DNA of 64,000 nt from Rhizobium sp. NXC14. GTDB lineage: Bacteria > Pseudomonadota > Alphaproteobacteria > Rhizobiales > Rhizobiaceae. Below, piece by piece: positions 26,195 through 44,604 of the stretch. Below the pieces are notes generated by a model that did not search any database, had not been told where the DNA came from, and saw nothing but the letters and a program-made list of their open reading frames with translations. The stretch's first letter is position 1. Every line of letters starts with the position of its first letter. The stretch is from positions 1,429,001 through 1,493,000 of the forward strand of contig NZ_CP021030.1 in the NCBI RefSeq assembly GCF_002117485.1, in the 5' to 3' direction. The position numbers and the translations under genes were made by a program.

Positions 26195-26221
26195 CGAAAG
26201 CCCCAGCCCGTCATCATCGGC

Positions 26222-27523
26222 TTACCTGACTGACATTGTCTGGACAGGCAGCGCAGCGGCGTCTTCTGATGACACATCGGCGGTGCGTACCCGAGTCACC
26301 CTGACCACGTCGCCCGGTGCCAGCTCCGTCATTTCGGAAGCCTGGAACTGACTGACCTCACCCTTTTCCCGCCGACTCACGATGAACGTCAGCGGCAATT
26401 CTTCATTGTAATTCTTCACGCTGGCGCCGCTCGACAGTTCTTCGAGAAGCAGTTGTTGCGTGGTGTCACGCTTCAATTTGAGCTGATCGAGATTGGCCTT
26501 TTCCGCCTGCACCTCGGTAGCGAGCTCATTGCGGCGAGTGTCGGAAAGTCCCTCGAGACTGCGCGTCGTCTCGTTGATTGCCTGGCGTCCCCGCATGATG
26601 GCAGTCACAAGATCGAGCCGATCGGAGCGATAGGTGGTGAGCAATCGTTCCAGATCCATCTGACGTGAGGAGATCGTCAGGCCTTTCTGGACCAACGTCT
26701 TCACGCTCGTCAGTTGTTCCTCCACTGACTGGATATTGTCATCCGAGCCTTTCAGTTTTTCTTGCAGCGTTTCGACTTCCGCAGTCAAGAGATTACGCAA
26801 TTCGACGAGCGCTACCGACTGTCTGTCCAGCGCGCTTGCACGGGCCTGAAAAATGACCCGCTCCTCCTCGTAGATACTCTCGGCATATTGCCGATCGGCG
26901 GCGGACGGCTGATCGAAGACTATCTCCTTCGCGTCCGCCATCTCCGCCTGCAGCCGCGCGAGCTTTGCAGAACTGCGCAGCAGCGAGTGGTCAATGTCCC
27001 GCAAATCGCCGGCAAGCCTGATCGCCTGCGATTGCTGCTGCGCCGCCGCCCGCAACGGGCCGCCGCTCATGGCGAGGGATTGCAAGACACTGAGGCCGGA
27101 GCGAAACTTGTATTCTCCCGGCGCCATCACGTCTCCCACCACGTAAATGGAGGAATAGTCCAGAACGTCGATGGTCACTGCAGGTGCCTGGGCCAGACCC
27201 ATCTTCGCCTGAAGGCGCTTGGCAATCTCGATGGTAAGGCCCGCATTGTCGAGATTGGCGACGGCCAACGACCCCAGGAAGGGCAGGGAGATTATACCTG
27301 AATCCGAAACAGTGTATTCTCCACTGATCCCATCCAACCGATCAAACTGCCCCTTGGACGGTATCCATTGCACGACACTCAGACGGATTTTCGTTTGTGG
27401 AGCGAAGAACGCGCTATCGGCGAGAGCCGGCGACACCGCTCCGGCAAGAAATGCGAGTGCACCGATGACAAACGTCGTGCGAAAGAGCAGCTGAGGGATG
27501 CGGTGCGATGAATTCATATACAT
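26222..27523 (-). CDS. Polysaccharide export protein, Wza/ExoF-like (OPX family)
   Basis: About 433 residues with a signal peptide (hydrophobic core VIGALAFLAGAV, likely cleavage after PALA). The Poly_export domain follows (about 45-140: GEYTVSDSGIISLPFLGSL), then a SLBB-like segment (IYVVGDVMAPGEYKF, about 135) and a long coiled coil (about 180-370). The ending LAPGDVVRVTRV resembles ExoF. There is no lipobox Cys, so it is probably periplasmic or peripheral, unlike classical Wza. I start it at the ATG with AGGCGAG just upstream; an ATG at 27541 adds six residues but has its AAGG directly against the start. First gene of the minus-strand pair with the flippase. Confidence 0.9.
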   Translation of the reverse strand: MYMNSSHRIPQLLFRTTFVIGALAFLAGAVSPALADSAFFAPQTKIRLSVVQWIPSKGQFDRLDGISGEYTVSDSGIISLPFLGSLAVANLDNAGLTIEIAKRLQAKMGLAQAPAVTIDVLDYSSIYVVGDVMAPGEYKFRSGLSVLQSLAMSGGPLRAAAQQQSQAIRLAGDLRDIDHSLLRSSAKLARLQAEMADAKEIVFDQPSAADRQYAESIYEEERVIFQARASALDRQSVALVELRNLLTAEVETLQEKLKGSDDNIQSVEEQLTSVKTLVQKGLTISSRQMDLERLLTTYRSDRLDLVTAIMRGRQAINETTRSLEGLSDTRRNELATEVQAEKANLDQLKLKRDTTQQLLLEELSSGASVKNYNEELPLTFIVSRREKGEVSQFQASEMTELAPGDVVRVTRVRTADVSSEDAAALPVQTMSVR

Positions 27524-28144
27524 ATCTCGCCTGCGAAGCATCCTTGAACGGATGCTGATCCAATGCCTTCACGCTGTTCGACCGCCGGCTGGCAGGTCCG
27601 AAGCCGCATCGTTAGTGTGCCGTCTGACGAAGGCTTGAGGAAGGTGAAGGTCGCTTGCTTTGCCTCATCACTATTGATGAGATGGGGTGGGTGCCTCAGT
27701 CTAAATCGAGCAGGAGCGTATATCTCAGAGAGGGATCATCCTGAAAAATCACGAGATCATGCACGCAGGAATAGGTGCGCTCGCCGTGAAGGACCGCGAT
27801 CGCATAGGCGTGCCGGATCGAAGGCGCCCCGATGCAGACGGCCTTTGCCATCGCTTGGTCGACCCGATCCGTTGCTTCCTGCCTGGGCGTTTCCAGCGTC
27901 AGTGCCGCCAAGTGGAGATGGTGGCCTAAGCCGCCGCCGCGGCTTCCTGCACCGGACGCGGCGAAGCTTTACGGCCCGTCGCACCCGTCACTATTTCATA
28001 AAACACGGCTGTTGCCCAAAGGATGGCGCCCGTAGAGCGAAAGGCGTAGGATATACTCGCTTATTTTTCGACTATACTTCCTGGAGTCGTATCAAACGAT
28101 CCTCATAGATTTGATCCCGATTAATATAGCGAGAGGTACCCGCC
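27524..28144. promoter_or_regulatory. Divergent intergenic region before the giant-protein operon
   Basis: 621 bases between the export protein gene and the first giant gene. The right end is AT-rich and should hold the promoter of the giant-protein operon; AGAGG lies eight bases before that start. I looked for a Zur-like inverted repeat, because of the CobW genes, and did not see one. One weak small frame on the minus strand is listed separately. Confidence 0.45.
27696..27911 (-). CDS. Possible small hypothetical protein
   Basis: A 71-codon frame opening with TTG (internal ATG at 27851). The translated C-terminal half, HAYAIAVLHGERTYSCVHDL followed by VIFQDDPSLRYTLLLDLD, has a natural-looking composition. 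No ribosome binding site is visible at either start, and I do not recognise a family. It may be a real short gene or a degraded remnant. Confidence 0.28.
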   Translation of the reverse strand: MAALTLETPRQEATDRVDQAMAKAVCIGAPSIRHAYAIAVLHGERTYSCVHDLVIFQDDPSLRYTLLLDLD

Positions 28145-31100
28145 ATGTATCGCAACGCTCGCCGGTGGATTTCGCACTCACTTCTCGTGGATTCCTTGGT
28201 GCCCCGATGGTTGACCGTCGGCGGAAAAGAAAGATCGCGCAAACCTGCCGAAAAGCATAAGGATAGTGCTCAACTAGCGGCATCTGTGCAAACCGCCGAG
28301 GGACACAAGCAGGGCATTCTTGTCGACGATCCCTATAAGGATGCGGCCCTCAACGAGCATGATGGCGGGCAGAGAGAGCGCGTGAACGGCGACGCGGTCA
28401 ACAGCCTCGAAGAGCGGCCGTTGCCTGACACTTTCGCAACGCCTGGCGAAATGGGAATTCGAAGCGGCGATGTGGCCGCGCTGTCGGCGCTTAAGCCGGA
28501 TTTTGCACGGTTCCAGTGGCACGCGGATGGAGTTGCGTTCGGGGCCGCATCGTCCCTTCAGCGCACCGATACCGCAATGAGCTCCATGGGCGACGATCCT
28601 CTGGCTCCCTATCTGCCGCAAAGCCCCGCACCGACAGCTTCGGGGCATGGTGCTCCTAAGGTGGCGGCCGGGCGTGCTCATTCGGGCAAGGTCGTCATTC
28701 TCGAATCGAGTCCGTCAGGGCAGGCGACTGCGCACGACGCCGGCGCGAATTCGCTGGCCTTCGGCATGCCCTTTGGCGTGTGCGGGTGCGGCTACTTTAC
28801 CTCCCCCACGCGGATTCTCGATTGGGCTCATGGCGGCGCCCTGCTTCAACAGGACGGTCAATTGCCGGGGACCAGGCTGATCGAAGGGCCGGACTATGTG
28901 GCGACGATCAAGCAGGCCATCGGCGCCTCGGTCAGCGATCCGCTTCTCGATCGTGACGTGTCCCCACTCTCGGGCTGGACCGGCACTGCAACATGGTCGG
29001 ACGCGGCGCTCACCAATGGAACCCTGCCAGGCGGGGGAGAGACGGGAACGGGAACAAAGTCCAAGGATATCGGTATCCTGTCCGGCTCTGTGACGAAGCC
29101 ACCTAAGCCTTCTACGCAGGGGTCATCGACAACGCAGGGCCTGGCGGCTGCGGCGGTGGCCAGCAACGCCATCGTGCTAGAAAACCAGAAGCAGGGCAAT
29201 CCAGAGAGCGAGTGGGGCATCGACGGTGCCGGCAGCTCCAACATCGAAGGGTTCGCGACCGATATCAGCGTCGATAATGGAAAGACGATCAGCTTCAAGA
29301 TCAATACCAATTCTACCAACTACCGGATCGATATCTATCGCCTCGGCTATTATGGCGGCATGGGGGCGCGCAAGGTCGCGACGATGCAGCACACCGGATT
29401 GCAGACCCAACCTAGTCCGTTGCGCAATGCGACGACCGGCACGGTGGACGCCGGTAACTGGGCCGTCTCGGCGTCCTGGACCGTACCGGATGATGCCGTT
29501 TCAGGCGTCTATATCGCCAAGCTCGTCCGTCAGGATGGCACCTCCGGCGAAAATCACATCCCGTTCATCGTGCGCGACGACGACAGCCACAGCGACGTTG
29601 TCTTCCAGACCGCGGATGAGACCTGGCAAGCTTACAATGGTTGGGGTGGCGCAAACCTCTATGGCGGCAACGGTCCAGCGACAGGGCAGGGTGCCGGTCG
29701 CGCCTATGCGGTCAGCTACAACAGGCCGATCGCGACGCGCGGCGGGGTCGGCACTTACGCCGGTCCCCAGGACTATCTGTTCGGTGCTGAATATGCGGGC
29801 ATCTACTGGCTGGAACAGAACGGCTATGACGTCTCCTATCTGTCGGGTGTCGACGCCGATCGCTATGGCAGCCTGCTGCTCAATCACAAGACTTATGTCG
29901 ATGCCGGGCATGACGAATATTGGTCGGGGCAGCAGAGAACCAATGTCGAGGCCGCGCGCGATGCGGGCGTCAACCTGATGTTCTGGAGCGGCAACGAAGT
30001 CTATTGGCGCACTCGCTGGGGCAATGCCTATAGCGCCGACGGCACGCCCTACCGCACCCTGATCACCTACAAGGAGACATGGGCGGGCGGCGATATCGAT
30101 CCTTCCGACCAATGGACAGGCACCTTCCGCGACCCACGCTTCAGCCCACCTGCCATCGGCGGCGGCAATCCGGAGAATTCGCTGACCGGCCAGCTGTTCA
30201 AGGTCGACGATGTCGGCAGCAACCTCGGTGCGATCACCGTTGGCTATGATGATGCCAACCTTCGCTTCTGGCGCAATACGAGCGTTGCCAATCTTCAGCC
30301 CGGGCAGACGGCAACGCTCACCAAAAACTATCTCGGTTACGAGTGGGACGAAGCACCCGATAACGGCTTCGATCCGGCTGGCCTGGTGAAGCTGTCGTCG
30401 ACGACGCTTCCGGTCAGCAGCTATTTGCTCGATTACGGAAACACGACCGGCAATGCGACGGCGACCCACAATCTGACGCTCTATCGCGCGCCCAGCGGCG
30501 CGCTGGTGTTCGGCGCCGGCACGGTCTACTGGACATGGGGTCTCAGCGACAATCACGACCTCACGGCGACCCGGACGGACTCGCGCGTACAGCAGGCAAT
30601 GGTCAATTTGCTTGCTGACATGGGCATTCAGCCTGGAACGCTACAGTCCGGGCTCACCGCCGCGACCGCTTCGTTGGACCACACTGCGCCGACATCGGTC
30701 ATCACGGTGCCCGCCACGGCGACCGTTGGATCCACCGTGACGATTACCGGCACCGCTGCCGATACCGGAGGCGGGGTCATCGCCGCGGTCGAGGTTTCGA
30801 CCGACAATGGGGCGAGCTGGCATCCGGCGACGGGCGATGAGAACTGGACTTATACCTGGCAGCCGCAAACCGCGGGCACCTATACCATCCGGTCTCGCGC
30901 AGTCGATGATAACGTCAATCTGGAAACGCCCTCTGCGGGACGAACGGTCACCGTCAGCGGGCCGAGTTACACCTCTCTCTTCGGTTCGGGGACGCCAGCG
31001 GTCGTCAACACCAACGATACCTCGGCGGTTGAACTCGGCTTCAAATTCCAGACGTCTGTGGCAGGTACTGTCACCGGCATTCGTTTTTATAAGGGCAGTC

Positions 31101-33286
31101 AGGATACCGGCACGCATACCGGTTCACTGTGGTCGAGTACCGGCACGCGGATTGCGACCCTCACCTTCACGAACGAGACTGCCAGCGGCTGGCAGACCGC
31201 CTATTTCACCAGTCCGGTATCGCTGACGGTCGGACAAACCTACACTGCATCTTACCATACCAATACCGGTCACTATTCGTCGACGACCGGCTACTTCACC
31301 TCAAATGTAACCAGCGGTCCGCTCACGGCGCCGGCCAGCGGCAACGGCGTCTATGCCTATGGCAGCAACAGCCTATTCCCCACGAGCACCTTCCAGTCGA
31401 CGAACTATTGGGTCGATGTGATGTTTACGACGCCGAGCTCGAATGCGACGCCGACGGCGGTTGCCGATACGGGGGATGCGACCGAGAAGGGTGGTGTGGC
31501 CAATGGTTCGGGCGGCGTGGTTGCGAGCGGCAACGTGCTGACCAACGACACCGATCCGGATACCGGTGACACCAAGACCGTCACGGCAGTCCGTTTCGGG
31601 ACGACGTCAGGCACGCTCGGCTCGGCGCTGAACGGCACCTATGGCAGTCTCGTGCTCAATGCATCGGGTGCCTATAGCTATGCGGTCAACGAGAACAATG
31701 CGACCGTCCAGGCGCTGCGACAGTCGACCAACACGCTGAGCGATGTCTTCAGCTACACGATGCGCGACAGCGCTGGCGCCACGGCCACGGCGAACCTGAC
31801 GATCACCATCCATGGCGCTAACGATGCGCCGGTGCTGGCCGTCCAGACGACGACCCAGAACGCCACCGTCGGCTCTGCCTTCTCCTTCACGCTGCCGACG
31901 ACCACCTTCACCGATGTCGACAGCGGCGACACGCTCGCTTATGCGGCAACGTCCGCCGATGGCACGGCGCTGCCTTCCTGGCTGAGCTTCAACGCCTCGA
32001 CACGCACTTTCTCCGGCACGCCGACGACAACTGGCACTTACGGCATCAAGGTGACGGCAACCGATCTCGGCAGCCTTGCCGCCAACGAGACCTTCAATAT
32101 CGCCGTGTCGACATCAGGCAATGCGACGCCGACGGCGGTTGCCGATACGGGGGATGCGACCGAGAAGGGTGGTGTGGCCAATGGTTCGGGCGGCGTGGTT
32201 GCGAGCGGCAACGTGCTGACCAACGACACCGATCCGGATACCGGTGACACCAAGACCGTCACGGCAGTCCGTTTCGGGACGACGTCAGGCACGCTCGGCT
32301 CGGCGCTGAACGGCACCTATGGCAGTCTCGTGCTCAATGCATCGGGTGCCTATAGCTATGCGGTCAACGAGAACAATGCGACCGTCCAGGCGCTGCGACA
32401 GTCGACCAACACGCTGAGCGATGTCTTCAGCTACACGATGCGCGACAGCGCTGGCGCCACGGCCACGGCGAACCTGACGATCACCATCCATGGCGCTAAC
32501 GATGCGCCGGTGCTGGCCGTCCAGACGACGACCCAGAACGCCACCGTCGGCTCTGCCTTCTCCTTCACGCTGCCGACGACCACCTTCACCGATGTCGACA
32601 GCGGCGACACGCTCGCTTATGCGGCAACGTCCGCCGATGGCACGGCGCTGCCTTCCTGGCTGAGCTTCAACGCCTCGACACGCACTTTCTCCGGCACGCC
32701 GACGACAACTGGCACTTACGGCATCAAGGTGACGGCAACCGATCTCGGCAGCCTTGCCGCCAACGAGACCTTCAATATCGCCGTGTCGACGGCGCCGACG
32801 AGCTACAGCCTGTTCTCTGCCTCCAGCACGCCGAGCCGCACCTTCAACGATGGTCAGCAGCTCGAACTTGGCGTCAGGTTCACGTCGAACGTTGCCGGAG
32901 ATGTCACCGGTATCAGGTTCTATCGCAGCGCCAATGACAACGGCCAGAATGTCGTCGACCTTTGGACCGCGACAGGCACCAAGCTTGCCACCGCCACCTT
33001 CACCACCACCACCGCGAGCGGCTGGCAGACGGTGAACTTCACAAACCCAGTCACCATCGCCGCCAATACCACCTATGTCGCCTCCTATCACACGACAGGC
33101 GCTTACGTGGCGACCAGCAATTTCTTTACGGCCGCTGTCAGCAACGGTCCGTTGACGGCGCCGGCCAGCGGCAATGGCGTCTATGCCTATGGCGGTTCCG
33201 CCACCGCAGGTCTTTTCCCGACCAACAGCTACAATTCAACCAATTACTACGCCGACGTCGTCTTCCGGCCGCAACTGGTCGCGTGA
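28145..33286 (+). CDS. Giant modular protein 1: DMFase-like domain with Ig, DUF4082 and VCBS/He_PIG modules
   Basis: 1713 residues, no signal peptide. A low-complexity N-terminus (1-340) precedes an N,N-dimethylformamidase-like domain (about 345-815) with [39 protein letters not shown] (H589, E591, Y592) and WSGNEVYWR (E618). An Ig-like module follows (about 847-938), then DUF4082 (about 941-1098), two identical VCBS-plus-He_PIG blocks (about 1100-1548) and a second DUF4082 (about 1552-1713), ending [16 protein letters not shown]. No GGxGxD RTX repeats are visible. It is probably exported by the type I system encoded downstream and acts outside the cell. Enzyme activity is inferred from the domain only; DMFase itself hydrolyses small amides with a mononuclear iron site. 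The next gene, a CobW GTPase, begins 42 bases after the stop. Confidence 0.88.
31442..32790 (+). repeat. Perfect in-frame tandem duplication, period 678 bp
   Basis: Bases 31442-32112 and 32120-32790 appear identical over 671 positions; only the 7-base joint separates them. The period (226 codons) keeps the frame and duplicates one VCBS plus one He_PIG module. The identity at the DNA level implies a recent event or continuing gene conversion. Confidence 0.93.
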
Positions 33287-33327
33287 TGCAAAGGATAAGA
33301 GTAGGATCGGTTTCAAATGAGGATGAC

Positions 33328-34569
33328 ATGACGCAAATGCGGATCGCAGAGAGGGACGCGGCCTCCGCTCCCACTCAAGCGACAGCGATGAACAAGGGCC
33401 GGCTCCCGGTGACAGTGCTCGCCGGCTTTCTCGGCGCCGGCAAGACGACGCTTCTCAGCCACGTGCTGACCAATCGTCAGGGCCTCAGGGTAGCCGTCAT
33501 CGTCAACGATATGAGTGAAGTGAATATAGACGCCAGTCTCATTCGAGACGGCGGCTGCAACCTGTCGCATACGACGGAGGCATTGGTTGAACTCAGCAAT
33601 GGCTGCATATGCTGTACCCTGCGCGATGACCTCCTGACGGAAGTGCGGCAACTGGCCGAAGAGGGGCGGTACGACTATCTGCTGATAGAGGGAACCGGCA
33701 TTGCCGAGCCGCGCCCCATCGCTGCCACCTTTTCCTTCCGCGACGAGAATGGTGTTTCGCTCTCCGATTTTGCCAAACTTGACACGATGGTGACTGTCGT
33801 GGACGCCGCCAGCCTCTTGGCTGATTACAGCAGCGCCGATCTGCTTCGCGATCGCGGCATGCAGCGGGACGGCGAGGACCGGCGGACACTCATCGACCTC
33901 TTGGTGGACCAGATCGAGTTTGCCGACGTTGTCGTGATCAACAAGATCTCGGACGCGACCGAGGAAATCCGCGCAGAAATTCGCAAAACGGTGGCTGCGC
34001 TCAACCCGGATGCGCACCAGGTGGAGACGGACTTCGGCAAGGTTTCTCTTGCAAGCATTCTCAGTACGGGCCTCTTCGACGAAGCAAAGGCCGCCGCTCA
34101 CCCGTTATGGCACAAGGAACTGTACAGCCCGGGTGCTCATGTTCCGGAGACGGAGGAATATGGGGTATCGAGCTTTGTCTATCGCACGAGGCGTCCCTTC
34201 GACCCGACACGGTTTCGGGCATTCCTGGACGAGCCCTGGCCAGGGGTCATCCGCGCCAAAGGTCATTTCTGGCTGGCCACGCGCCCGCGTCACGTGGGTC
34301 TGATGTCGGCGGCCGGAGCGCAACGACGCTGTGAACCAATGGGGCTCTGGTGGGCGGCCGTTCCCCGGCAGGACTGGCCGAGCCACCACCAGTTTCGCCA
34401 GCATATCGAGCGCCGATGGGACAGCGCTTGGGGCGATCGTCGGCAGGAACTCGTGTTCATTGGTGTTGACATGGACGAGACAGGCGTCCGCAGCGCGTTG
34501 GACGACTGCCTGGCCAGCTCGGATCCGCGGGACTGGTCGGCTCTCGAAGATCCCTTTCCGGCCTGGTAG
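33328..34569 (+). CDS. CobW/COG0523 family GTPase (putative metallochaperone), first copy
   Basis: About 413 residues. N-terminal G domain: Walker [15 protein letters not shown], the metal-binding GCICC motif ([12 protein letters not shown]), [24 protein letters not shown] and the base-recognition NKIS. C-terminal CobW_C domain ends with [19 protein letters not shown], as in the ZigA/YciC-type members that handle zinc. The ATG at 33328 has GAGGA four bases before it; an ATG overlapping the giant gene stop (TGATG at 33284-33288) is an alternative without a ribosome binding site. The tight position behind a putative metalloenzyme gene, repeated in the second pair, suggests metal delivery to that enzyme or to the secretion complex. 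Confidence 0.9.
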
Positions 34570-34717
34570 CACGGGGCGGCGCCGGAGTTTGCCGGCTCGA
34601 CCAGCCGGACCGGCAACACAAGACCGACCAGCTTTCTCTTACACAGCGTCCGCCGCTTAGCGGGAGCACCAGACGGGTCCAGAACCGGATATGCGGTGAG
34701 GATCATCATATCGGCGT

Positions 34718-37700
34718 ATGGAGTACCACCAACATACCCAAGATTGCTGTCGTACGTTCCGCTCCGAAAGCTGGCAGGATGAAGCTATTCAATGCTGGTC
34801 GACGGGAATGGGGACGCCGCTCTTGGTGAGATTTCATGTGAGGAATCGCAAATACTTGACTGCTGCCGGCGGCACGCCGTGCATCAGTCACGCAACCTCG
34901 GCCTGGGCCGCGCTGCTTGGAACTCCGACCGTCGTGTCTTCGAGCACTCAGGGTTCTTCCGACTTTGCCAATCACGGCAGCGCAACCGTTCAATCCTATC
35001 TCACCGGCACGGTTACATCTTCCTTGATATCATCAGGCGACATGCAGTCGTCGCCTGCATCGTCGAGGCCGATGTCGCCGCCTGCCGCCGATGGCGGCGC
35101 GCAGGACACGTCCACGAAGACGGCGTCGGCTGCGACGATCTTCGACACGACCTCCTCGGCATCGCAAGACACCGTACTTGCCCCAGATCCCTACGAAGAG
35201 GCTGCTACACTGCCTGCCGCCCCCGCATTGACGGGTATTACCAGCGATGCCGGCACCGGAAGCGCCACGGCGACGGCGCCGGTCACTTCTTCAAGCACTC
35301 TCGACACGGCTTCGTTGCGCCTTCAGGCCTCGATAGCATCCCTCACGGTGGAGCCGAGCCAGGACGCTTCCGCCGATACGACCGCGGTCTCAGCGCTGGC
35401 CGCACCAGCGGCGGCTCCGGCTGCGGTCACGCTCAACAAGATCGCACTGGAAAACCTGAAACAGGGCAGCCCGATCAGCGAGTGGGGCCTGGAGGGCGAT
35501 GGCAAGGGCACCATCCAGGGCTTCGCAACTGAAATCAGTACGAATATCGGCCAGACGGTCGATTTCAAGATCGCCACCGATTCCACGCATTACCGCATCG
35601 ATATCTACCGGATGGGTTATTACGGCGGGGCCGGCGCGCGCAAGGTCGACTCGATCGAGCAGCAGCTGACCACGGCGCAGATCCAGCCGCATCCGATCGT
35701 CGACATGTCGTTCGGTCTCATCGACTGCGGCAACTGGTCGGTCTCGGCGAGCTGGCAGATTCCGACCGATGCCGTCTCCGGGGTCTATTTCGCCAAGCTG
35801 GTGCGTGAGGACGGCACCGAGGATGCCAGCATCATCCCCTTCGTCGTGCGCGACGACTCCTCGCACAGCAATATCGTTTTCCAGACCTCGGACACGACGT
35901 GGCAGGCCTATAATGCCTGGGGCGGCGCCAGCCTCTATTACGGCGATGTCCCCGTCGATCCCGCTGACATGATCGGCTACTTGCCGCCGAACTGCAGCTG
36001 CGGCCTGACCGCAATCGGTCGCGCCTCGGCGATCAGCTACAACAGGCCGATCATCACCAATACGAGCCCAGTCGGCGGCTCGCACGACTTCATTTTTGGC
36101 GTCGAGCATTCAGCCATCCAGTGGCTGGAGCAGAACGGTTACGACGTCTCCTATATTTCCGGTGTCGATGCGACGCGTAGCGGTAGCCTGCTGCTGAACC
36201 ATGATGCCTTCCTGTCGGTCGGACATGACGAATACTGGTCGGCCGAGCAGCGCACCAATGTGGAGGCCGCGCGCGATGCCGGCGTGAACCTCGCCTTCTG
36301 GAGCGGCAACGAAGTCTATTGGAAGGTTCGCTGGGAAAGCAGCATCGATGGCAGCGGCCAAGCCTACCGCACCATGGTCTGCTACAAGGAGACCTACGGC
36401 ACGGGCACGGACCCGAGCAATATCGGCACCGGAACCTGGCGCGATCCGCGTTACGCCGATCCGGGGCAGGAGCCGGAAAATTCGCTGACGGGGACGATGT
36501 TTCAGGTGGACGGCTACCGCCAGGATACGATCTCCATCCCCTACGACTATTCGAACCTTCGTTTCTGGCGCAATACCGATGTGGCAGAGCTGCAGCCGGG
36601 CGAGACTTACAATCTGGTGCAGAACCTGCTTGGTTACGAATGGGATTCGGATGTCGAAAACGGATTCCGTCCAGCTGGACTGATCAACCTGTCGCTCTCC
36701 TCGGTGGCGGTCAACACTTATCTGCGCGATTACGGTTCGACGGTCGGCGATGCGGTGGCGACCCACAGCCTGACCATGTACCGGGCGGCAAGCGGCGCGC
36801 TCGTCTTCGGCGCCGGCACCGTCTTCTGGTCCTGGGGGCTGAACGATCAGCATCAGGGGCCGGCAACGTCAACCGATCGCAACGTGCAGCAGGCGATGGT
36901 CAACATGTTCGCGGACATGGGCATCCAGCCGACGACGCTCGATGCGAGCCTGATCCTCGCGACCCAATCGAGCGACACGCTGAAGCCCACCTCGTCGATT
37001 ACCTCGCCCATCGTCGGCGCAAGCTTCCTCGAAGGGCAGCATGTGACGATATCAGGAACGGCGCAGGATTTCGGCGGCGGCATCATTGCCGGCGTCGAGG
37101 TCTCCACCGATGGCGGCCAGCACTGGTTCAAGGCCACGGGCCGCGAGAACTGGAGCTATAACTGGGTCGTCCAGGCGAGCGGCACCTATACGATCCTGTC
37201 ACGCGCCGTCGACGACAGCGTCAATCTGGAGGCGCCATCGGCCGGCAAGCAGGTCACCGTCACGCTGCCGGGCACGCAGGGCCTGTGGACGCTGGCGGAA
37301 AAGCCCGCGACCGAAGTAGCGGTCGATCGCGATTCAGTCGAGCTCGGCCTGCGCTTCCAAGCGACGACGGCAGGCTCGGTGGAGGGCATCCGCTTCTACA
37401 AGGGCTTCTATAACATCGGCGAACACGTCGTCAGCCTCTGGAGCAGCACCGGAACGCTGCTGGCGACCGGCGTAGCGACAGGGGAATCGCTCTCAGGATG
37501 GCAGACGGTGATGTTCTCCAGCCCGATCCAGATCGCGGCCGGCACGACCTATGTGGCCTCCTATCACAGCAATGGCTACTACTCGCTCACCCAGAACTAT
37601 TTCAACGAGCCCTATGCCAGCGGCCAGCTGAAGGCCGTCGATGGCGGCGGCGTCTTCGCCTACGGCACTACGCCCAGCACATTCCCCGGCCAGAACCCCG

Positions 37701-39298
37701 GAGGCAGCAATTACTGGGTGGACGTGGTCTTCGATGCCGGCCCCAACAGCCAGCCGGTCGCGACCGACGACAGCGGGCTGATCACCGGCCACAACGCAAC
37801 GCTTGTTATCTCCATTGCCTCGCTCCTGGCAAACGATACCGATCCCAATGGCGATGCGATGACCATCACGGCCGTCGGCAATGCCGTCAATGGCACGGTC
37901 GCTCTCAACAAGCAGACCGGCGCCATCACCTTCAGGCCGGCCAACGATTATTCAGGACCGGCGAGCTTCAGCTATACGCTGTCTGACGGGCGCGGCGGCA
38001 CGGATCAAGGCAATGTCAGCCTGACCGTCCAGACGGGTTCGGCTGGCGAGACACTGTTTACGGCAAGTGAGGGACCGACCGGCGGCAGCTTCAACGACAA
38101 TACGGCGTTGGAACTCGGCATGAAGTTCGTCGCTTCCTCGACCGGCACGATCTCGGGCATCCGCTATTACAAGGCTGCCGGCGATACCAGCCTGCATACC
38201 GGCTCCATTTGGAGAGCCGACGGCACGCTCGTCGCAACGGTCACCTTCACCAACGAGTCGCTCTCCGGCTGGCAGACCGCGAACTTCGCCACGCCGCTGC
38301 AGATCACCGCGGGTGCGACCTATGTCGCCTCATACCACACGACCGGCACCTATGTGGCGACGTCGAATTATTTCAACACGGCACATACCAATGGCTCGCT
38401 GACGGCGCTTGCAGGCAGCAATGGCGTCTACTCGGTCGGATCAAGCTCGATCTTCCCGACGTCAAGCTATCAGTCAACGAATTACTGGGTTGACGTCGTC
38501 TTCAATCAATCGACGGGCAATGCGGTGCCGGTCGCCGCCAATGACAACGGCTATACGACTTATACCAATACGGCTCTGTCGATCGCCGCCGCAAATCTGC
38601 TCGCAAATGACAGCGATGCGGATGGCAACCCGCTTGTCATCACCGGCGTCAGCGGCGCGGTCAACGGTTCGGTGTCCTACGAGAACCAGACGCAGACCGT
38701 CACCTTCACGCCGACGGCAGGATATACCGGGCCGGCGAGCTTCAGCTATTCCATCGCCGACGGTCAGGGCGGCACGGCATCCGCCCAGGTTGGGCTTACC
38801 GTCAACGCCCAGGGGAGCGAGCAGAACCTCTTCAGCGCCAATGAAACGCCTGCAGTCGTCTCGGTGAACGACAATCACCCGGTCAATCTCGGCATGAAAT
38901 TTCAGGCGGACACGGCCGGCTGGGTCACAGGGATCCGCTTCTATAAGGGCGCCGACAATACCGGCCCGCATAACGGTTATCTCTGGACCGCCTCGGGCAC
39001 GCTGCTTGCAACCGTCACCTTCAGCAACGAAACGGCAAGCGGCTGGCAGACTGCCACGCTCACCCAGCAGGTCGCGGTCGCAGCGGATACGGCCTACGTC
39101 GTTTCCTACAGCACAAACGGCAATTACTCGGCGACGGGCAATTATTTCAGCACTGAGAAGACCAGCGGCGACCTCAGGGCGTTCAGCGGCGACAATGGCC
39201 TCTATGCCTATGGATCGAGCGGGTTGTTCCCGACCAGCAGTTACAACAGCACAAACTACTATGTGGACGTGGCGTTCAAACTGCAGCTCGCGGCGTAA
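34718..39298 (+). CDS. Giant modular protein 2: DMFase-like domain with Ig, DUF4082 and cadherin-like modules
   Basis: About 1526 residues, no signal peptide; the start is uncertain (the ATG used has GTGAGGA rather far upstream; an ATG at 34808 is possible). Layout: Ala/Thr/Ser-rich N-terminus (1-235), DMFase-like domain (about 240-730) with NLKQGSPISEWGL, GHDEYWS (H503, E505) and WSGNEVYWK (E532), Ig-like module (about 756-849), then DUF4082 (854-1006), cadherin-like (1008-1106), DUF4082 (1108-1264), cadherin-like (1266-1364) and DUF4082 (1367-1526), ending STNYYVDVAFKLQLAA. It is a diverged paralogue of giant protein 1 with the same architecture and tail. It is followed by its own CobW GTPase gene, which makes the two-gene unit a repeated one. 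Confidence 0.87.
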   Translation: MEYHQHTQDCCRTFRSESWQDEAIQCWSTGMGTPLLVRFHVRNRKYLTAAGGTPCISHATSAWAALLGTPTVVSSSTQGSSDFANHGSATVQSYLTGTVTSSLISSGDMQSSPASSRPMSPPAADGGAQDTSTKTASAATIFDTTSSASQDTVLAPDPYEEAATLPAAPALTGITSDAGTGSATATAPVTSSSTLDTASLRLQASIASLTVEPSQDASADTTAVSALAAPAAAPAAVTLNKIALENLKQGSPISEWGLEGDGKGTIQGFATEISTNIGQTVDFKIATDSTHYRIDIYRMGYYGGAGARKVDSIEQQLTTAQIQPHPIVDMSFGLIDCGNWSVSASWQIPTDAVSGVYFAKLVREDGTEDASIIPFVVRDDSSHSNIVFQTSDTTWQAYNAWGGASLYYGDVPVDPADMIGYLPPNCSCGLTAIGRASAISYNRPIITNTSPVGGSHDFIFGVEHSAIQWLEQNGYDVSYISGVDATRSGSLLLNHDAFLSVGHDEYWSAEQRTNVEAARDAGVNLAFWSGNEVYWKVRWESSIDGSGQAYRTMVCYKETYGTGTDPSNIGTGTWRDPRYADPGQEPENSLTGTMFQVDGYRQDTISIPYDYSNLRFWRNTDVAELQPGETYNLVQNLLGYEWDSDVENGFRPAGLINLSLSSVAVNTYLRDYGSTVGDAVATHSLTMYRAASGALVFGAGTVFWSWGLNDQHQGPATSTDRNVQQAMVNMFADMGIQPTTLDASLILATQSSDTLKPTSSITSPIVGASFLEGQHVTISGTAQDFGGGIIAGVEVSTDGGQHWFKATGRENWSYNWVVQASGTYTILSRAVDDSVNLEAPSAGKQVTVTLPGTQGLWTLAEKPATEVAVDRDSVELGLRFQATTAGSVEGIRFYKGFYNIGEHVVSLWSSTGTLLATGVATGESLSGWQTVMFSSPIQIAAGTTYVASYHSNGYYSLTQNYFNEPYASGQLKAVDGGGVFAYGTTPSTFPGQNPGGSNYWVDVVFDAGPNSQPVATDDSGLITGHNATLVISIASLLANDTDPNGDAMTITAVGNAVNGTVALNKQTGAITFRPANDYSGPASFSYTLSDGRGGTDQGNVSLTVQTGSAGETLFTASEGPTGGSFNDNTALELGMKFVASSTGTISGIRYYKAAGDTSLHTGSIWRADGTLVATVTFTNESLSGWQTANFATPLQITAGATYVASYHTTGTYVATSNYFNTAHTNGSLTALAGSNGVYSVGSSSIFPTSSYQSTNYWVDVVFNQSTGNAVPVAANDNGYTTYTNTALSIAAANLLANDSDADGNPLVITGVSGAVNGSVSYENQTQTVTFTPTAGYTGPASFSYSIADGQGGTASAQVGLTVNAQGSEQNLFSANETPAVVSVNDNHPVNLGMKFQADTAGWVTGIRFYKGADNTGPHNGYLWTASGTLLATVTFSNETASGWQTATLTQQVAVAADTAYVVSYSTNGNYSATGNYFSTEKTSGDLRAFSGDNGLYAYGSSGLFPTSSYNSTNYYVDVAFKLQLAA

Positions 39299-39346
39299 CG
39301 CCCACAAGGATGCAAGCCGACCATCGAGTAAAGAGTGAGAGTATCG

Positions 39347-40579
39347 ATGATGCGTGCAGACAACAGATTGCCGGTTACGGTTCTCGCGGGGTTTCTCGGC
39401 GCAGGGAAGACGACTGTCCTCAATCATGTCCTGAGTAATCGGGAGGGCCGTCGGGTTGCGGTCATTGTCAACGATATGAGCGAGGTTAACATTGATGCGG
39501 ATCTCGTGCGCGAGGGAGGTGCAGACCTTCTGCGCACCGATGAGACGCTGGTAGAGCTCACCAATGGATGCATCTGCTGCACGCTCCGCGAAGATCTCCT
39601 CAGCGAGGTGCGGCGGCTGGCGGCCGCCGGCCGTTTCGACTATCTGCTGATCGAGGGCACGGGGATCGCCGAGCCTCTGCCGGTAGCAGCGACATTCTCC
39701 TTCCGCGACGAGAGTGGAGCTGCCCTTTGCGACGTGGCAAGGCTCGACACCATGGTCTGCGTCGTCGACGCGGTCAATCTGCTTGCCGATTACCGCAGCG
39801 ACGAGTTCCTGGCCGATCGCGGCGAAAGGCGTGACGGGGACGATAAGCGCAAGCTGGTGGAACTGCTTGTCGAGCAGATCGAATTTTCCGATGTCGTCAT
39901 CATCAACAAGGCGGGCGACGTGCCCTGCGCCGACCTTGCCGAGGTTCGCCGGGTCGTCGCGGCACTCAATCCGGATGCCCGCGTCATCGAGACGGTGTTC
40001 GGCCAGGTGCCGCTTGGCACGATCCTGGATACCGCCCTTTTCAGCGAAGCCAAGGCCGCCCGCCATCCGCTCTGGCACAAGGAGCTCTTCGGCTGGGACG
40101 ATCATGTGCCGGAGACCGAGGAATACGGCATAACAAGCTTCGTCTATCGCAGCCGCCGGCCCTTCGATCCGGCGCGGCTGGGCCGCATGCTCAAGCAGCC
40201 ATTGCCCGGCGTCATCAGGGCGAAAGGCCATTTCTGGCTGGCGACCCGGCCGGACGAGATCGGTCTGCTGTCGATTGCCGGTACGCAATGCCGCATCGAT
40301 ACCAGAGGGTTCTGGTGGGCCTCGGTGCCGCGGGCGCACTGGCCGCGCCATCCGCAATTCCGCCAGTTACTCGACCGGCATTGGGACGATGTCTGGGGCG
40401 ACCGCCGCCAGGAGCTGGTCTTCATCGGCTCCGGCTTCGACGAGGGCGCCATCCGCATCGCGCTCGACGATTGCTTGACCGGCGAGGAGACGGGTTTCGA
40501 TCCTCAGACCGCCGTCGGTCTTCGCGATCCGTTTCCGCCATGGCGGCACGATACGCACGCATCGAACGGAAAAATGTGA
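39347..40579 (+). CDS. CobW/COG0523 family GTPase, second copy
   Basis: About 410 residues, clearly a paralogue of the first copy: [66 protein letters not shown] and the C-terminal [21 protein letters not shown]-dependent metal transfer (zinc, iron or cobalt) is the usual role. The ATG has GAGAG five bases upstream; ATG 39350 and GTG 39335 are alternatives. It sits 48 bases after giant gene 2, mirroring the first pair, and 73 bases before the small gene that leads into the secretion genes. Which metal it serves cannot be read from the sequence. Confidence 0.9.
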
Positions 40580-40615
40580 AGCGGTTTTCGGATAATCCGA
40601 TGCGTCGACTCAAAG
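40574..40615. repeat. Intergenic element with GTGNGMAGCGGTTTT-like core, copy 2
   Basis: GTGAAGCGGTTTTCGGATAA begins at the stop codon of the second CobW gene. It shares its core with elements at 24582 and 45685. Here the palindromic part is weak. Confidence 0.4.
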
Positions 40616-40652
40616 GTGAACAGGTTTTGATTATCAACCAGAGGAGAGAACA

Positions 40653-40958
40653 ATGAGCAGCGAACTTTATGCAGACGGTATAGGCGAAATCACCGTCACA
40701 GGAACGATCGTGCGCATCGACCTGATGTCGCTCTCGGCCACCGATCGGGACGCCAACAACAATCCGAAGCCGGTTTTCCGCCAGCGCATCATCATGCCTG
40801 TCGACGCCTTCGCCAATGCGGTTGATCTCATGCAGAAGGCGCTTGGCGGCTTGGTCGAGGCGGGCGCGGTCCGTCGCATCGGTGACGTGTCGGCTGCAGC
40901 CGCCACCGATATCCAATCGGTGCAGGGCGCTTCAAACGCCTCGCCGAATTTCAACTGA
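40653..40958 (+). CDS. Small protein of unknown function preceding the secretion genes
   Basis: A 101-residue soluble protein (MSSELYADGIGEITVTGTIV) with a very strong ribosome binding site (GAGGAGA, five bases before ATG). The order of beta segments, RQRIIMPVDAFANAVDLMQK and an Ala-rich tail distantly recalls the DUF3467 group, but I do not claim the family. It has no signal peptide or membrane helix. The strong translation signal and the place between CobW and the ABC transporter suggest a co-expressed accessory factor, for instance a substrate chaperone. Function unknown. Confidence 0.8.
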   Translation: MSSELYADGIGEITVTGTIVRIDLMSLSATDRDANNNPKPVFRQRIIMPVDAFANAVDLMQKALGGLVEAGAVRRIGDVSAAAATDIQSVQGASNASPNFN

Positions 40959-40999
40959 CAACAGGGACAGCCTCGGTCTCGTAATGTTTCGGGTGGGCC

Positions 41000-43144
41000 A
41001 TGAGTGGTTTTCTGCATACCAACCTGCATTGTCTTGCGCTCGTCGCGCGTCACCACGGCGTCGACCTTTCTCCTGAGCGATTGCAGCACGATTATTGCGT
41101 CGGCAACGATCCGGTGGCGGTGCGGCAAATGCTCAGAATGGCGAAGGATGCCGGTCTGAGGGCCAGGCATCTGGCCCTCGACTGGCGAAGCCTGTTCCAA
41201 CTCGGCGAGGCTTTCCCGGTGCTTGCCGAACTTTCGAACGGCAACTGGGTGGTCATCGCTGGCGCTCTCGGGGAGGGTGAGGATGAGCGGATCCGCGTTC
41301 TCGACCCGCTCGCCACGCGCCCTGAAGTCATGCTGCTGAGCGAGGAGCAATTCGCCAAGGCCTGGCTCGGATCGGTGGTTCTGCTGAAGCGCAACTACCG
41401 CATGTCGGATGAGGACCGGCCCTTCGGCTTCCGCTGGTTCATCCCCGAAATTATCCGGCAGCGCAGCTTCTTCCGCGATGTGGCGCTCGCAGCCTTCGTG
41501 CTGTACGGACTGGGTTTGACGACGCCGATGTTCTTCCAGCTCGTCATCGACAAGGTGCTCGTGCATCAGAGCTACGCGACATTGACGGTCCTGACCGTCG
41601 GTATCGCGGTGGCGCTCGTCTTCGACGCGACCTTCAGCTTCCTGCGCCGCTATCTGCTGCTCTACGCCACCAACAGGATCGACATCCGGGTGGCGACGCG
41701 CACCTTCGGCCATCTGCTCAACCTGCCGATCGCGCTCTTCGAACAGGCCTCGGCCGGTGTTCTCGTCAAGCATATGCAGCAGACGGGGCGCATCCGCGAA
41801 TTCCTGACCGGCCGGCTGTTCCTGACGCTTCTCGACGGTGTTTCGCTCTTCGTCTTCGTGCCGATCCTGCTTCTCTACAGCGTCAAGCTGACCCTCGTGG
41901 TGCTGGGTTTTGCGGCGCTCGTCGGGCTTGTGGTGATGATGCTCGTCGGGCCGTTCCAGCGTCGCCTGCAGGCCCTCTATCAGGCCGAAGGCGACCGGCA
42001 GGCCCTGCTTGTCGAAACCGTGCACGGCATGCGCACGGTGAAATCACTGGCGCTGGAGCCGCGACAGCGCAAGGTGTGGGACGATTATTCGGCGCAGTCG
42101 ATCTCGGTGCGCTTCCGGGTCGAAAAAATCTCCACCATCGCCCAGTCGCTGACCGGGCTTCTGGAAAAGCTGATGAGCGTGGCGATCATCGGGCTCGGCG
42201 CGCTCGATGTCTTCAGCGGTTCCATGACGATCGGCGCGCTGGTCGCCTTCAACATGCTGGCCGGCCGCGTCTCGGGGCCGCTGGTGCAGATCGTCACCAT
42301 GGTGCATGAATATCAGGAAGTGGCGCTTTCCGTGCGCATGCTCGGCGAGATCATGAACCAGCGGCCGGAACAGGCCGGACGCGGCCGAGGTGTGCGGCCG
42401 CATCTGCATGGCCGCATCGAATTCGACAGGGTCACCTTCCGCTATGCTCCCGATGCGGCGCCTGCGCTCGACAATGTGTCCTTCGCCATTCCGGCGGGCT
42501 GCGTCTTCGGCGTCGTCGGCAAGAGCGGCTCGGGCAAGACGACGATCACCCGACTCATCCAGGGCCTCTATCAGAGCCAGGAGGGGCTGGTGCGCATGGA
42601 TGGCTACGACAGCCGCGAAATCGATCTCGTGCATCTGAGAACCAGCATCGGCGTCGTGCTGCAGGATAATTTCCTCTTCCGCGGCACGGTGCGCGACAAT
42701 ATCGCTGCCGCCAAACCCGATGCCAGCATCGAGGAAATCATGGAGGTCGCCCGCGTCGCCGGCGCGGAGGAATTCATCGAGCGCCTGCCGCGCGGCTTCG
42801 ACACGATGCTGGAAGAAAACGCCGCCAACCTCTCCGGCGGCCAAAGGCAGCGGCTTGCCATTGCGCGCGCGCTGATCACCGATCCGAAGCTCCTGATCTT
42901 CGACGAGGCGACGAGCGCGCTTGACCCAGACAGCGAGGCGATCATCCGCGAAAATCTGAGCCGGATCGCCGCCGGGCGCACCGTCGTCATCGTGTCGCAC
43001 CGGCTTTCGACGCTTGTGGATGCCGATGCCATTCTCGTCATCGATCGGGGCAAGGTCGCCGATATCGGCCGGCACGACCAGCTGGTGTCGCGCTGCATGA
43101 CTTATCGCCACCTGTGGGCCCAGCAAATGAGGCAGGTCGCATGA
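41000..43144 (+). CDS. Type I secretion ABC transporter with C39-like domain (HlyB type)
   Basis: A 714-residue exporter: N-terminal C39-like domain (about 1-130), six-helix membrane domain (about 155-440) and ABC ATPase (about 475-705) with GKSGSGKTT, VVLQDNF, NLSGGQRQRLAIARAL, LLIFDEATSAL and SHRLST. In the C39 region (HTNLHCLALVARHHGVDL) the position of the protease Cys appears to be Thr, so it should be a non-cleaving HlyB-like domain. This predicts substrates exported through a C-terminal signal without leader cleavage, as would fit the giant proteins upstream. It overlaps the membrane fusion gene by 4 bases (ATGA). No TolC gene is present in the window. Confidence 0.94.
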   Translation: MSGFLHTNLHCLALVARHHGVDLSPERLQHDYCVGNDPVAVRQMLRMAKDAGLRARHLALDWRSLFQLGEAFPVLAELSNGNWVVIAGALGEGEDERIRVLDPLATRPEVMLLSEEQFAKAWLGSVVLLKRNYRMSDEDRPFGFRWFIPEIIRQRSFFRDVALAAFVLYGLGLTTPMFFQLVIDKVLVHQSYATLTVLTVGIAVALVFDATFSFLRRYLLLYATNRIDIRVATRTFGHLLNLPIALFEQASAGVLVKHMQQTGRIREFLTGRLFLTLLDGVSLFVFVPILLLYSVKLTLVVLGFAALVGLVVMMLVGPFQRRLQALYQAEGDRQALLVETVHGMRTVKSLALEPRQRKVWDDYSAQSISVRFRVEKISTIAQSLTGLLEKLMSVAIIGLGALDVFSGSMTIGALVAFNMLAGRVSGPLVQIVTMVHEYQEVALSVRMLGEIMNQRPEQAGRGRGVRPHLHGRIEFDRVTFRYAPDAAPALDNVSFAIPAGCVFGVVGKSGSGKTTITRLIQGLYQSQEGLVRMDGYDSREIDLVHLRTSIGVVLQDNFLFRGTVRDNIAAAKPDASIEEIMEVARVAGAEEFIERLPRGFDTMLEENAANLSGGQRQRLAIARALITDPKLLIFDEATSALDPDSEAIIRENLSRIAAGRTVVIVSHRLSTLVDADAILVIDRGKVADIGRHDQLVSRCMTYRHLWAQQMRQVA

Positions 43145-44604
43145 ACGCGCGTGTCACAAAATCCAGCGAGAACCTGCCAATTTCATCAGACAAGGGCGCC
43201 TCGGACCATGGCCCCTCGAATAAGGGGCCAGACGGAAGGACCGGGCTGCTCGTCGCCCGCCCGCCGCTGCCGCCTGTTATCGCGGAATTTCAGTCCGATG
43301 CCGTCGAGCTCGAGGAACGTGCTCCGCCGCGCATTGCGCGCATGACGCTCTATTGCGTGACGGCGCTGATCGCTGCGACCATCATCTGGGCGTCCGTCTC
43401 TGAGATCGACGAGGTGGTGATTGCGCCCGGCAAACTCGTCACCACGCAACCGACCATCGTCGTCCAGCCGCTGGAAACCTCGATCATCCGCACGATCGAT
43501 GTGAAGGCCGGCGAGGTGGTGCGTGCCGGACAAACGCTCGCAACGCTCGACGCCACTTTCAGCCAGGCCGATGTCGACCAGCAGCAGGCGAAGTTCTCCG
43601 CACTCGACGCCCAAGTGAAGCGCATCGAGGCGGAACTCGCCGGCGATGACTACACGATGATGGCCGGATCGACGCCCGACGAGATGCTGCAGTTGCAGCT
43701 CTTCGGCCAGCGGCGGGCCTTCTACACGGCGCAGCTGCAGAATTTCGAGCAGCAGATCGCCGGCCAGTCGGCAGCGCTTGCCGCGGCCAAGAACCAGGAA
43801 GCCGTGCTCATCGACCGACGCGACACGCTCTCGCAGATCGAAGGCGCGCGCGAGCGGCTCTTTAACACGCAGAGCGGCTCGCTGATCACCATGCTCGGCT
43901 CGCGCGACGCCCGCCTCGACGTCGAGTCCGATCTGACGGCCGTGCGCGGCAAGGCCGACGAAGCCGCGCATACCTTTGCCAAGCTGAAAGCCGACCGGCA
44001 GGCCTTTATCGAGGATTTCCGCCGCGCCGCGATGGAACAGCTGGTCGAGCTGCGCGGCCAGCGCGACATGGCGGATGAAGAGCTGAAGAAGATGGAGCTG
44101 CGCCGCAACATGGTGTCGCTGACAGCACCTGCCGACGCCGTCGTGCTCGACCTCGCCCAGCGCTCCATCGGCTCCGTGGTACGCGAAGCCGAACCGATAG
44201 TCACACTGGTGCCGATCAACGTGCCGCTCGAAGCCGAAGTCTCGATCAACACCCGCGACATCGGCCGCATCGCGGTGGGTAAGGAGGCCCGCATCAAGCT
44301 GGACGCCTACCCCTTCCAGAAATACGGCACCGCGTCGGGCGAGGTTCGCACCATCAGCCAGGACACGTTCATGACCGGCCAGCAGCAGGAACAGACCGCC
44401 ACCCCGGGCCAGCCGGCCGCGCCCTTCTTCAAGGCTCGCATCCTGCTTGCCGATACGAGGCTGAACGTCTCGGACGTGCCGGTCAGGCTGCTGCCGGGCA
44501 TGACCGTCTCCACAGAGATCAAGGTGGGCAACAGAACGGTGATCTCCTATTTCCTCTATCCGCTGCTGCGCGGCCTGGATGATGCCATCCGGGAACCGAA
44601 CTGA
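43141..44604 (+). CDS. HlyD-family membrane fusion protein
   Basis: About 487 residues: cytoplasmic N-terminus, one transmembrane helix (about 74-93, LYCVTALIAATIIWASVSEI), a biotinyl-lipoyl-like segment (VVQPLETSIIRTIDVKAGEV, about 115), a long periplasmic coiled coil (about 150-345) and the C-terminal beta-barrel with LNVSDVPVRLLPGMTVSTEI, the HlyD signature. It joins the inner-membrane ABC transporter to an outer-membrane TolC protein coded elsewhere. The start overlaps the transporter gene stop. Confidence 0.94.
   Translation: MNARVTKSSENLPISSDKGASDHGPSNKGPDGRTGLLVARPPLPPVIAEFQSDAVELEERAPPRIARMTLYCVTALIAATIIWASVSEIDEVVIAPGKLVTTQPTIVVQPLETSIIRTIDVKAGEVVRAGQTLATLDATFSQADVDQQQAKFSALDAQVKRIEAELAGDDYTMMAGSTPDEMLQLQLFGQRRAFYTAQLQNFEQQIAGQSAALAAAKNQEAVLIDRRDTLSQIEGARERLFNTQSGSLITMLGSRDARLDVESDLTAVRGKADEAAHTFAKLKADRQAFIEDFRRAAMEQLVELRGQRDMADEELKKMELRRNMVSLTAPADAVVLDLAQRSIGSVVREAEPIVTLVPINVPLEAEVSINTRDIGRIAVGKEARIKLDAYPFQKYGTASGEVRTISQDTFMTGQQQEQTATPGQPAAPFFKARILLADTRLNVSDVPVRLLPGMTVSTEIKVGNRTVISYFLYPLLRGLDDAIREPN

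Follow-up and report, generated by a model that had tools for sequence, protein, structure and literature searches.

In the bacterium Rhizobium sp. NXC14, we analysed a DNA window of 64,000 nucleotides (G000:C1:1429001-1493000, within a 6.69 Mb genome of 4 contigs; G, C and L numbers are our handles for genomes, contigs and loci). It carries seven genes on the + strand at 28145-44604, in the order giant 1, CobW 1, giant 2, CobW 2, small protein, HlyB-type ATP-binding cassette (ABC) transporter and HlyD. The giants are large repeat proteins with a dimethylformamidase (DMFase)-like domain, and the CobWs are GTPases of the COG0523 family. What is new here, by sequence comparison, is that giants with a CobW neighbour carry a Cys-x-Cys (CxC) motif, at three different places in three lineages. 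On balance, and with modest confidence, we favour the reading that each CobW is a COG0523 GTPase dedicated to one client and matures the CxC site of the adjoining giant, much as Nha3 does for the Fe-type nitrile hydratase. The first-pass annotation of this DNA had listed the seven genes in this order on one strand, and open reading frames (ORFs) do lie there, as follows.

28145..33286, + strand: giant 1, 1713 amino acids (aa), with an N-terminal extension bearing CGCGY, a DMFase-like domain, immunoglobulin (Ig)/cadherin-like repeats and two DUF4082 stretches (ORF and profiles)
28781..28795, + strand: CGCGY motif of giant 1, residues 213-217; C213 and C215 are the sole cysteines of giant 1
29324..30553, + strand: DMFA2_C domain of giant 1, residues 394-803 (profile match)
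33328..34569, + strand: CobW 1, ZigA-type COG0523 GTPase with CxCC (profiles; ATG start chosen by eye)
34718..39298, + strand: giant 2, 1526 aa counted from the first ATG (likely start near 34808), with a DMFase-like domain bearing a PPNCSCG insertion, cadherin-like repeats and three DUF4082 stretches
35594..36850, + strand: DMFA2_C domain of giant 2, residues 293-711 (profile and fold)
35984..36004, + strand: PPNCSCG insertion of giant 2, residues 423-429, with C426 and C428 (sequence comparison)
39335..40579, + strand: CobW 2, ZigA-type COG0523 GTPase with CxCC (profiles)
40653..40958, + strand: small protein, 101 aa, which travels with the ABC and HlyD genes in relatives (ORF)
41000..43144, + strand: HlyB-like type I secretion ABC transporter with a C39-like N-terminal domain (profiles)
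43114..44604, + strand: HlyD-family type I secretion adaptor (profiles)

We scored CxC and CobW in giants gathered from genus, family and order genome searches, a few named loci and later loci; distant stand-alone DMFase proteins fell below the threshold. Twelve entries were dropped first, mostly duplicate overlapping stretches, together with one partial gene, the second piece of a split gene and a weak 528-aa relative (L273). The first count of 92 giants gave 67 with both CxC and CobW, 14 with neither and one with CxC only; the other 10 lay at contig edges (7 with CxC, 3 without) and were not usable, having no readable flank. Adding 8 further loci, with states set by hand, gave 100 rows, 90 of them usable. 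Among these 90 giants with readable flanks, 69 had both traits, 19 had neither, 1 had CxC only and 1 had CobW only. A CxC was scored only within the DMFA domain or its N-terminal extension. The giant at L123 was scored CobW-positive despite a CobW 1 in two frames, while the CobW remnant of Rhizobium sp. T136 was scored as no CobW. In L123 (G267), the split CobW 1 stands beside a giant with an intact CGCGY and is either a pseudogene or a sequencing error. We rejected the naive rule that any CxC means CobW, as the giants at L307 and L308 have CPC in their DUF4082 linkers and no CobW annotated nearby; both were scored CxC-negative. These two giants, from Paenarthrobacter and Arthrobacter plasmids, begin with a hydrophobic Sec-like N-terminus and lie among copper and zinc genes.

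The motif differs in position between the lineages. The 1,713 residues of giant 1 include just two cysteines, those of CGCGY, and the N-terminal extension bearing this motif is conserved among CobW-linked giants 1. Giant 2 carries PPNCSCG as an insertion inside the DMFA domain and has further cysteines elsewhere. Its pattern PPNC[SN]CG is present in 117 of the best 120 of 7,936 giant 2 relatives; the three of these 120 that lack it are 55-58% identical to giant 2, one being labelled Mycobacterium. The third place is a YCHCG near the PENSLTG segment in Acuticoccus sediminis (P0124 = L271). Among the 118 listed relatives of this giant (query included), 72 have CxC, nearly always near PENSLTG, and 46 do not. 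A Paracoccaceae plasmid giant of the same third type (LCNCAEN; L306) is directly overlapped, on its upstream side, by a gene annotated as 'Putative metal chaperone YciC'. CobW lies directly upstream at both loci of known context (L271, L306), a context limited to two loci because few giants were found beyond the order. Together, these patterns suggest that the CxC motif is the site of CobW action.

The pairing itself was first proposed as a two-gene unit of giant plus CobW, and it is conserved. In the same-genus sample of 37 genomes (G000-G036, own genome G000 included), the giant-class CobW was found in 19/19 genomes with a DMFA/DUF4082 giant and in 0/18 without, so the scattering of CobW genes independently of giants that had been named as a refuting result was not found. 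The CobWs of those 19 genomes scored 556.9-573.1 bits and lay beside a giant or less than 700 bases from a contig start; the contig-start cases (G014:C31, G033:C4, G032:C79) were counted by score, their adjacency to a giant being unchecked. The 18 giant-less genomes include G017, with a divergent 633-aa DMFA protein, and G004, G010, G018 and G024, with stand-alone DMFase-like proteins, and none has a CobW in the score range. A giant-1-like protein without CobW in G001 (L045) is likewise without CxC.

Searching for the neighbourhood across genomes, as the earlier annotation had proposed, we found that giant 2, CobW 2, the small protein, ABC and HlyD form one block, while giant 1 and CobW 1 adjoin the block or sit elsewhere in the genome. 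The block recurs in the same genus, in other genera of the family and in other families of the order, and it is present whole in one genome of another order (G1146; L310). With this recurrence, the gene order is, judged from sequence, more than chance. Profile matches to the giants occurred in 29/297 sampled genomes of the family, in 25/397 of the order (five of them same-genus) and in 3/385 of the class sample, where two are the own genome and one is of the same order. The family and the order of G1146, with two genomes each in the collection, held no further giants, and no relative of the giants was found among viral contigs. The best named matches to the locus are Rhizobium plasmids at about 85% identity, and Rhizobium johnstonii 3841 has the identical gene order on pRL9 (RL_RS26640 to RL_RS26670). 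In Rhizobium wenxiniae (L187), giant 1 and CobW 1 lie beside their own HlyD-ABC-small protein set, and in genus g143 (L256-L258), CobW is upstream of the giant.

CobW 1 and CobW 2 both have cobW and CobW_C domains above the cut-offs and a CxCC motif, which places them in the COG0523 branch of the G3E GTPases. The CxCC is present in 47/47 giant-linked CobW rows (L271 left out of the count). On the ZigA model NF038288 (cut-off 600), CobW 1 scored 563.3 and CobW 2 557 bits, both below the ZigA threshold, while the other copy of the own genome, ZigA, scored 601.1 bits. In a tree of 137 CobW rows, 47/48 giant-linked CobWs fall into a single clade together with the relocated CobW 2 of G345 (Shimodaira-Hasegawa-like approximate likelihood-ratio test support, SH-aLRT, 100), within which the 17 CobW 1 rows form a clade of their own (SH-aLRT 99). 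Outside it fall the 88 giant-less rows and, from Acuticoccus, the CobW of L271, which by this position is probably a separate recruitment; the tree is a quick search with SH-aLRT supports and without bootstrap, and L271 is a long branch of unsure placement.

It could be asked whether the two CobWs act in zinc starvation generally, or have a partner other than the giants, and stand beside these by accident. Their scores close to the ZigA cut-off and their CxCC would fit such a role. However, they belong to a separate clade, the same genome has a canonical ZigA, and the giant-less same-genus genomes lack the giant-linked class. The own-genome ZigA adjoins a znuA gene, an ABC ATPase gene and a Fur-family gene, away from the giant locus. 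In a scan with a consensus Zur-like palindrome, the zigA/znuA locus (19,901 bases) has 5 sites, the giant loci (616,347 bases in 33 overlapping stretches, L038-L070) have 2 and the 64-kb window has 0. A Zur-like site stands just upstream of ZigA in L087, L289, L303 and L304 and is absent at L297 and L298; counted over the five other ZigA loci, the site is immediately upstream in three and missing in two. A giant neighbour is the exception among ZigA-type CobWs (of the best 80 named loci matching CobW 2, 7 have giant parts and 73 do not). With their separate clade, and with Zur-like sites at zigA/znuA and none in the window, the giant-linked CobWs appear uncoupled from the zinc regulon, and we regard a general zinc-starvation role or another partner, with accidental placement beside giants, as very improbable. 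The first-pass annotation had kept a fallback that CobW serves another partner; this is now less likely, because the presence of CobW tracks the CxC of the giant and both decay together in one strain. In this strain, Rhizobium sp. T136 (L312), the motif reads VWGCGY, with one cysteine gone, and the downstream CobW 1 is a frameshifted, shortened remnant.

The client-specific reading has for it the conserved pairing, a CobW clade apart from ZigA, no Zur-like sites nearby, the CxC covariation and the joint decay. Several observations weigh against it. In G345, a giant has CxC, and the giant-type CobW 2, small protein, ABC and HlyD are on another contig. In Pararhizobium sp. A13 (L315), an intact CobW 2 adjoins a giant 2 without the insertion. 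In three giants that have no CobW next to them (L120, L127, L314), CGCGY gives way to a form with four cysteines, CCGxCGYxNCP, which may be a site independent of any GTPase; the genome of L127 (G147) has no CobW 2 relative anywhere at expect values (E) up to 1e-80, and that of L120 (G123) has two, one beside its giant 2. The predicted models do not place the CxC loop (predicted local distance difference test score, pLDDT, under 50, in a giant 2 model of mean pLDDT 75.8). Type I substrates are thought to leave the cell unfolded, which fits badly with metal loading before export. The contact between CobW and giant, the metal and the activity are predictions. Finally, each trait needs 4 changes on the tree, and there are just 4 independent contrasts, of which 3 are concordant, 0 opposite and 1 shows no difference (sign test, p 0.25).

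With so few contrasts the statistics are weak, and the covariation is suggestive and not significant by itself. It would also arise by inheritance of a few old units plus chance, with CobW an operon passenger and the role of CxC unrelated. The contrasts are compatible with this, as are the close kinship of most of the 69 concordant rows and the one intact CobW beside a giant without CxC. Three features beyond the contrast count speak against mere inheritance, namely the three motif places, the probable second CobW recruitment and the joint decay in T136. We hold inheritance with chance to be unlikely.

Turning to the giants themselves, they share one domain plan, as first described: DMFA2_C, Ig/cadherin-like repeats and DUF4082 (two stretches in giant 1 and three in giant 2, one of them C-terminal). 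The DMFA2_C profile (PF20254, cut-off 27) scored 326.5 bits in giant 1 and 347 bits in giant 2, and this score, together with the fold modelled for giant 2, places the domain in the DMFase-type amidohydrolase family. The top Protein Data Bank matches of the giant 2 model are 8i5a/8huy and 6lvb (template modelling score, by query, up to 0.65), and a profile of eight DMFA rows matches the same entries across the first part of the catalytic half. The model of giant 1 from AlphaFold, N-terminal extension included, is poor (mean pLDDT 50.4). Passages of PMC7686228 assign to DMFase a two-Tyr, one-carboxylate iron site (Y399, Y440, E521) with H519, N547 and E657. By hand count along the alignments, Y399, H519, E521 and N547 correspond to Y398, H503, E505 and N531 of giant 2, and E657 probably to E641 via the acylase alignment; these positions are invariant in 27/27 rows. 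The iron ligand Y440 has no sure equivalent in the giants in this 27-row alignment. The likeness to DMFase proposed at first pass stands by profile and fold, and is uncertain at one of the three iron ligands. The PPNCSC insertion falls, by sequence, in the Y440 region. We considered whether its second cysteine replaces Y440, which the spacing allows, but another tyrosine is invariant in 27/27 rows and we do not claim it.

In giant 1, residues ~1091-1556 (31415-32812) are a near-exact internal duplication of a repeat unit with a period of 226 residues. The identity of 225/240 compared positions suggests that the array expanded recently; relatives include longer giants with more repeat units.

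As noted at first pass, neither giant has an obvious Sec signal at its N-terminus, judged by eye. Giant 2 probably starts ~30 codons downstream of its first ATG, because its orthologues start at the equivalent of MGTPLLVRFHVRNRKYL. From the ~34808 equivalent, the orthologues often show a short conserved N-terminal stretch ending in YLSxxGG (31/63 frames, a loose pattern). A C39 motif holds a Cys-Gly pair. None of the 32 distinct ABC N-termini listed has such a pair, and we rejected the idea that giant 2 has a double-glycine leader which is cut by the C39-like domain of the ABC. The best match of the ABC is TIGR01846 (685.6 bits, under the cut-off 725.55), making it HlyB-like, and the adaptor matches TIGR01843 with 310 bits (cut-off 208.65), so the two are type I secretion genes of HlyB and HlyD type. 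The 101-aa small protein has no Pfam or NCBIfam match; a set of 5.8 billion proteins yielded 565 candidates, 539 of which are relatives at E up to 1e-5. The small protein, ABC and HlyD also lie beside giants without CobW, both where CxC is missing (L270, L313) and where the four-cysteine variant is present (L127). By gene order, these three genes go with the giant and not with CobW. The earlier type I secretion link is thus supported by synteny, and the giants are probably exported surface proteins, a prediction from gene order.

We infer the contact, metal, export and substrate in the following scheme. CobW would bind the newly made giant in the cytosol through CxC, acting as docking or metal-acceptor site, and a GTP-coupled handover would bring zinc or iron to the DMFase-like N-terminal half, a part synthesised well ahead of the C-terminus. 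Export would follow by way of the adjoining HlyB/HlyD pair and the small protein, and the giant would act as an amidohydrolase of DMFase fold on the cell surface or in the matrix. In another scheme, CobW acts on CxC as a GTP-driven export chaperone, keeping the N-terminal half unfolded or guarding its thiols until type I export, with no metal loading. This would remove the paradox of a folded, metal-loaded type I substrate, and it draws on the same covariation and T136 decay and on a giant 1 otherwise free of cysteines. Against it, the COG0523 roles known from the literature excerpts are metal roles, and giants without CobW (L127, L270, L313) keep the same export genes. We consider a pure export chaperone rather unlikely and retain metal handover as the preferred scheme. 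As for the overall interpretation of the first-pass annotation, the unit of giant and CobW and the synteny-based export link have held, while its other-partner fallback has lost ground.

A polysaccharide cluster lies upstream of the giants within the window, with these features.

18964..24495, + strand: amino-sugar cassette of acyltransferase, Gfo/Idh, DegT, acyltransferase, epimerase and DegT (both acyltransferase labels taken from annotated orthologues)
24689..27541, - strand: polysaccharide flippase and polysaccharide export protein (window annotation)

At least 3 amino-sugar cassette genes were found in 17/115 loci of the giant set and in 0/73 ZigA loci without giants; the giant set contains stand-alone DMFase loci as well as stretches that overlap, many of the stretches are short, and the control is unmatched for polysaccharide regions. 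The 17 include Acuticoccus (54-65% identity) and G147 (73-75%), and L266 and L272 count by weak or overlapping matches. The cassette stands beside giants in Rhizobium, Acuticoccus (L271) and G147 (L127), with CobW present or not. At most, this hints at a role of the giants in or on exopolysaccharide. Possibly the cassette is the source of their substrate; judged from the gene neighbourhood, the likeliest substrate would be an N-acylated sugar of exopolysaccharide. Cys-x-Cys metal sites, built of two thiolates and backbone amides, occur in nitrile hydratase (CSC) and acetyl-CoA synthase (CGC). Carrying the scheme further, CxC could be a grafted metal site of this kind, with its metal installed by a dedicated COG0523 GTPase; the giant would be a type I-exported matrix amidohydrolase editing the N-acyl groups of exopolysaccharide, and CxC a portable COG0523 client tag placed at three spots in one family. 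We put forward this full version as a doubtful speculation.

No report of DUF4082 with CobW, of dimethylformamidase with type I secretion or of the giant-CobW pairing was found among the open-licence papers listed, a scope that excludes the COG0523 gene-context supplement of PMC2770081; DUF4082 alone led to one secretome paper. Most COG0523 clients are unknown, and part of a review describes many COG0523 sequence clusters without a characterised member (PMC9164220). The locus offers a named client together with a candidate acceptor motif. Natural gains, losses and one joint decay are available in culturable rhizobia, e.g. Rhizobium johnstonii 3841, and the locus poses the paradox of cytosolic metal loading of a type I substrate expected to be unfolded.

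Among known systems, the closest in working is Nha3 (P44K/P47K). Passages of PMC2770081 and PMC9164220 describe its COG0523 GTPase gene as clustered with the Fe-type nitrile hydratase genes, and, with PMC7329996, the client as having a Cys-rich metal motif that ends in Cys-Ser-Cys. As with CobW and giant, a COG0523 gene stands beside a single client gene. The client here, in contrast, is a repeat-rich giant that has a DMFase-like domain and is accompanied by export genes, the CxLCSC metal motif is absent and only the two-cysteine CxC is present, and the GTPases are of ZigA kind by score. The comparison is therefore a likeness in working, drawn by analogy, and not membership. The ZigA/YciC zinc metallochaperones share the nearest family model, the CxCC and the domain plan with CobW 1 and CobW 2, which differ in scoring below the ZigA cut-off, forming a separate clade, having no Zur-like sites nearby and being tied to giants. 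With the dimethylformamidase large subunit (6lvb) and N-acetyl-(R)-beta-phenylalanine acylase (8huy, 8i5a), the giants share PF20254, the best fold matches and most catalytic residues. The match does not cover domain II of DMFase (~260 residues; 74-337 in passages of PMC7686228), Y440 lacks a certain counterpart, and the giant size, the repeats and CxC are extras of the giants. Finally, rhizobia and other bacteria have large repeat adhesins secreted by type I systems, in which a HlyB-like ABC and a HlyD likewise accompany large repeat proteins that show no obvious Sec signal; the giant locus differs from them in having a metallochaperone gene and, in the same operon, a small protein of its own, and in the enzyme-like domain that the giants bear in their N-terminal half.

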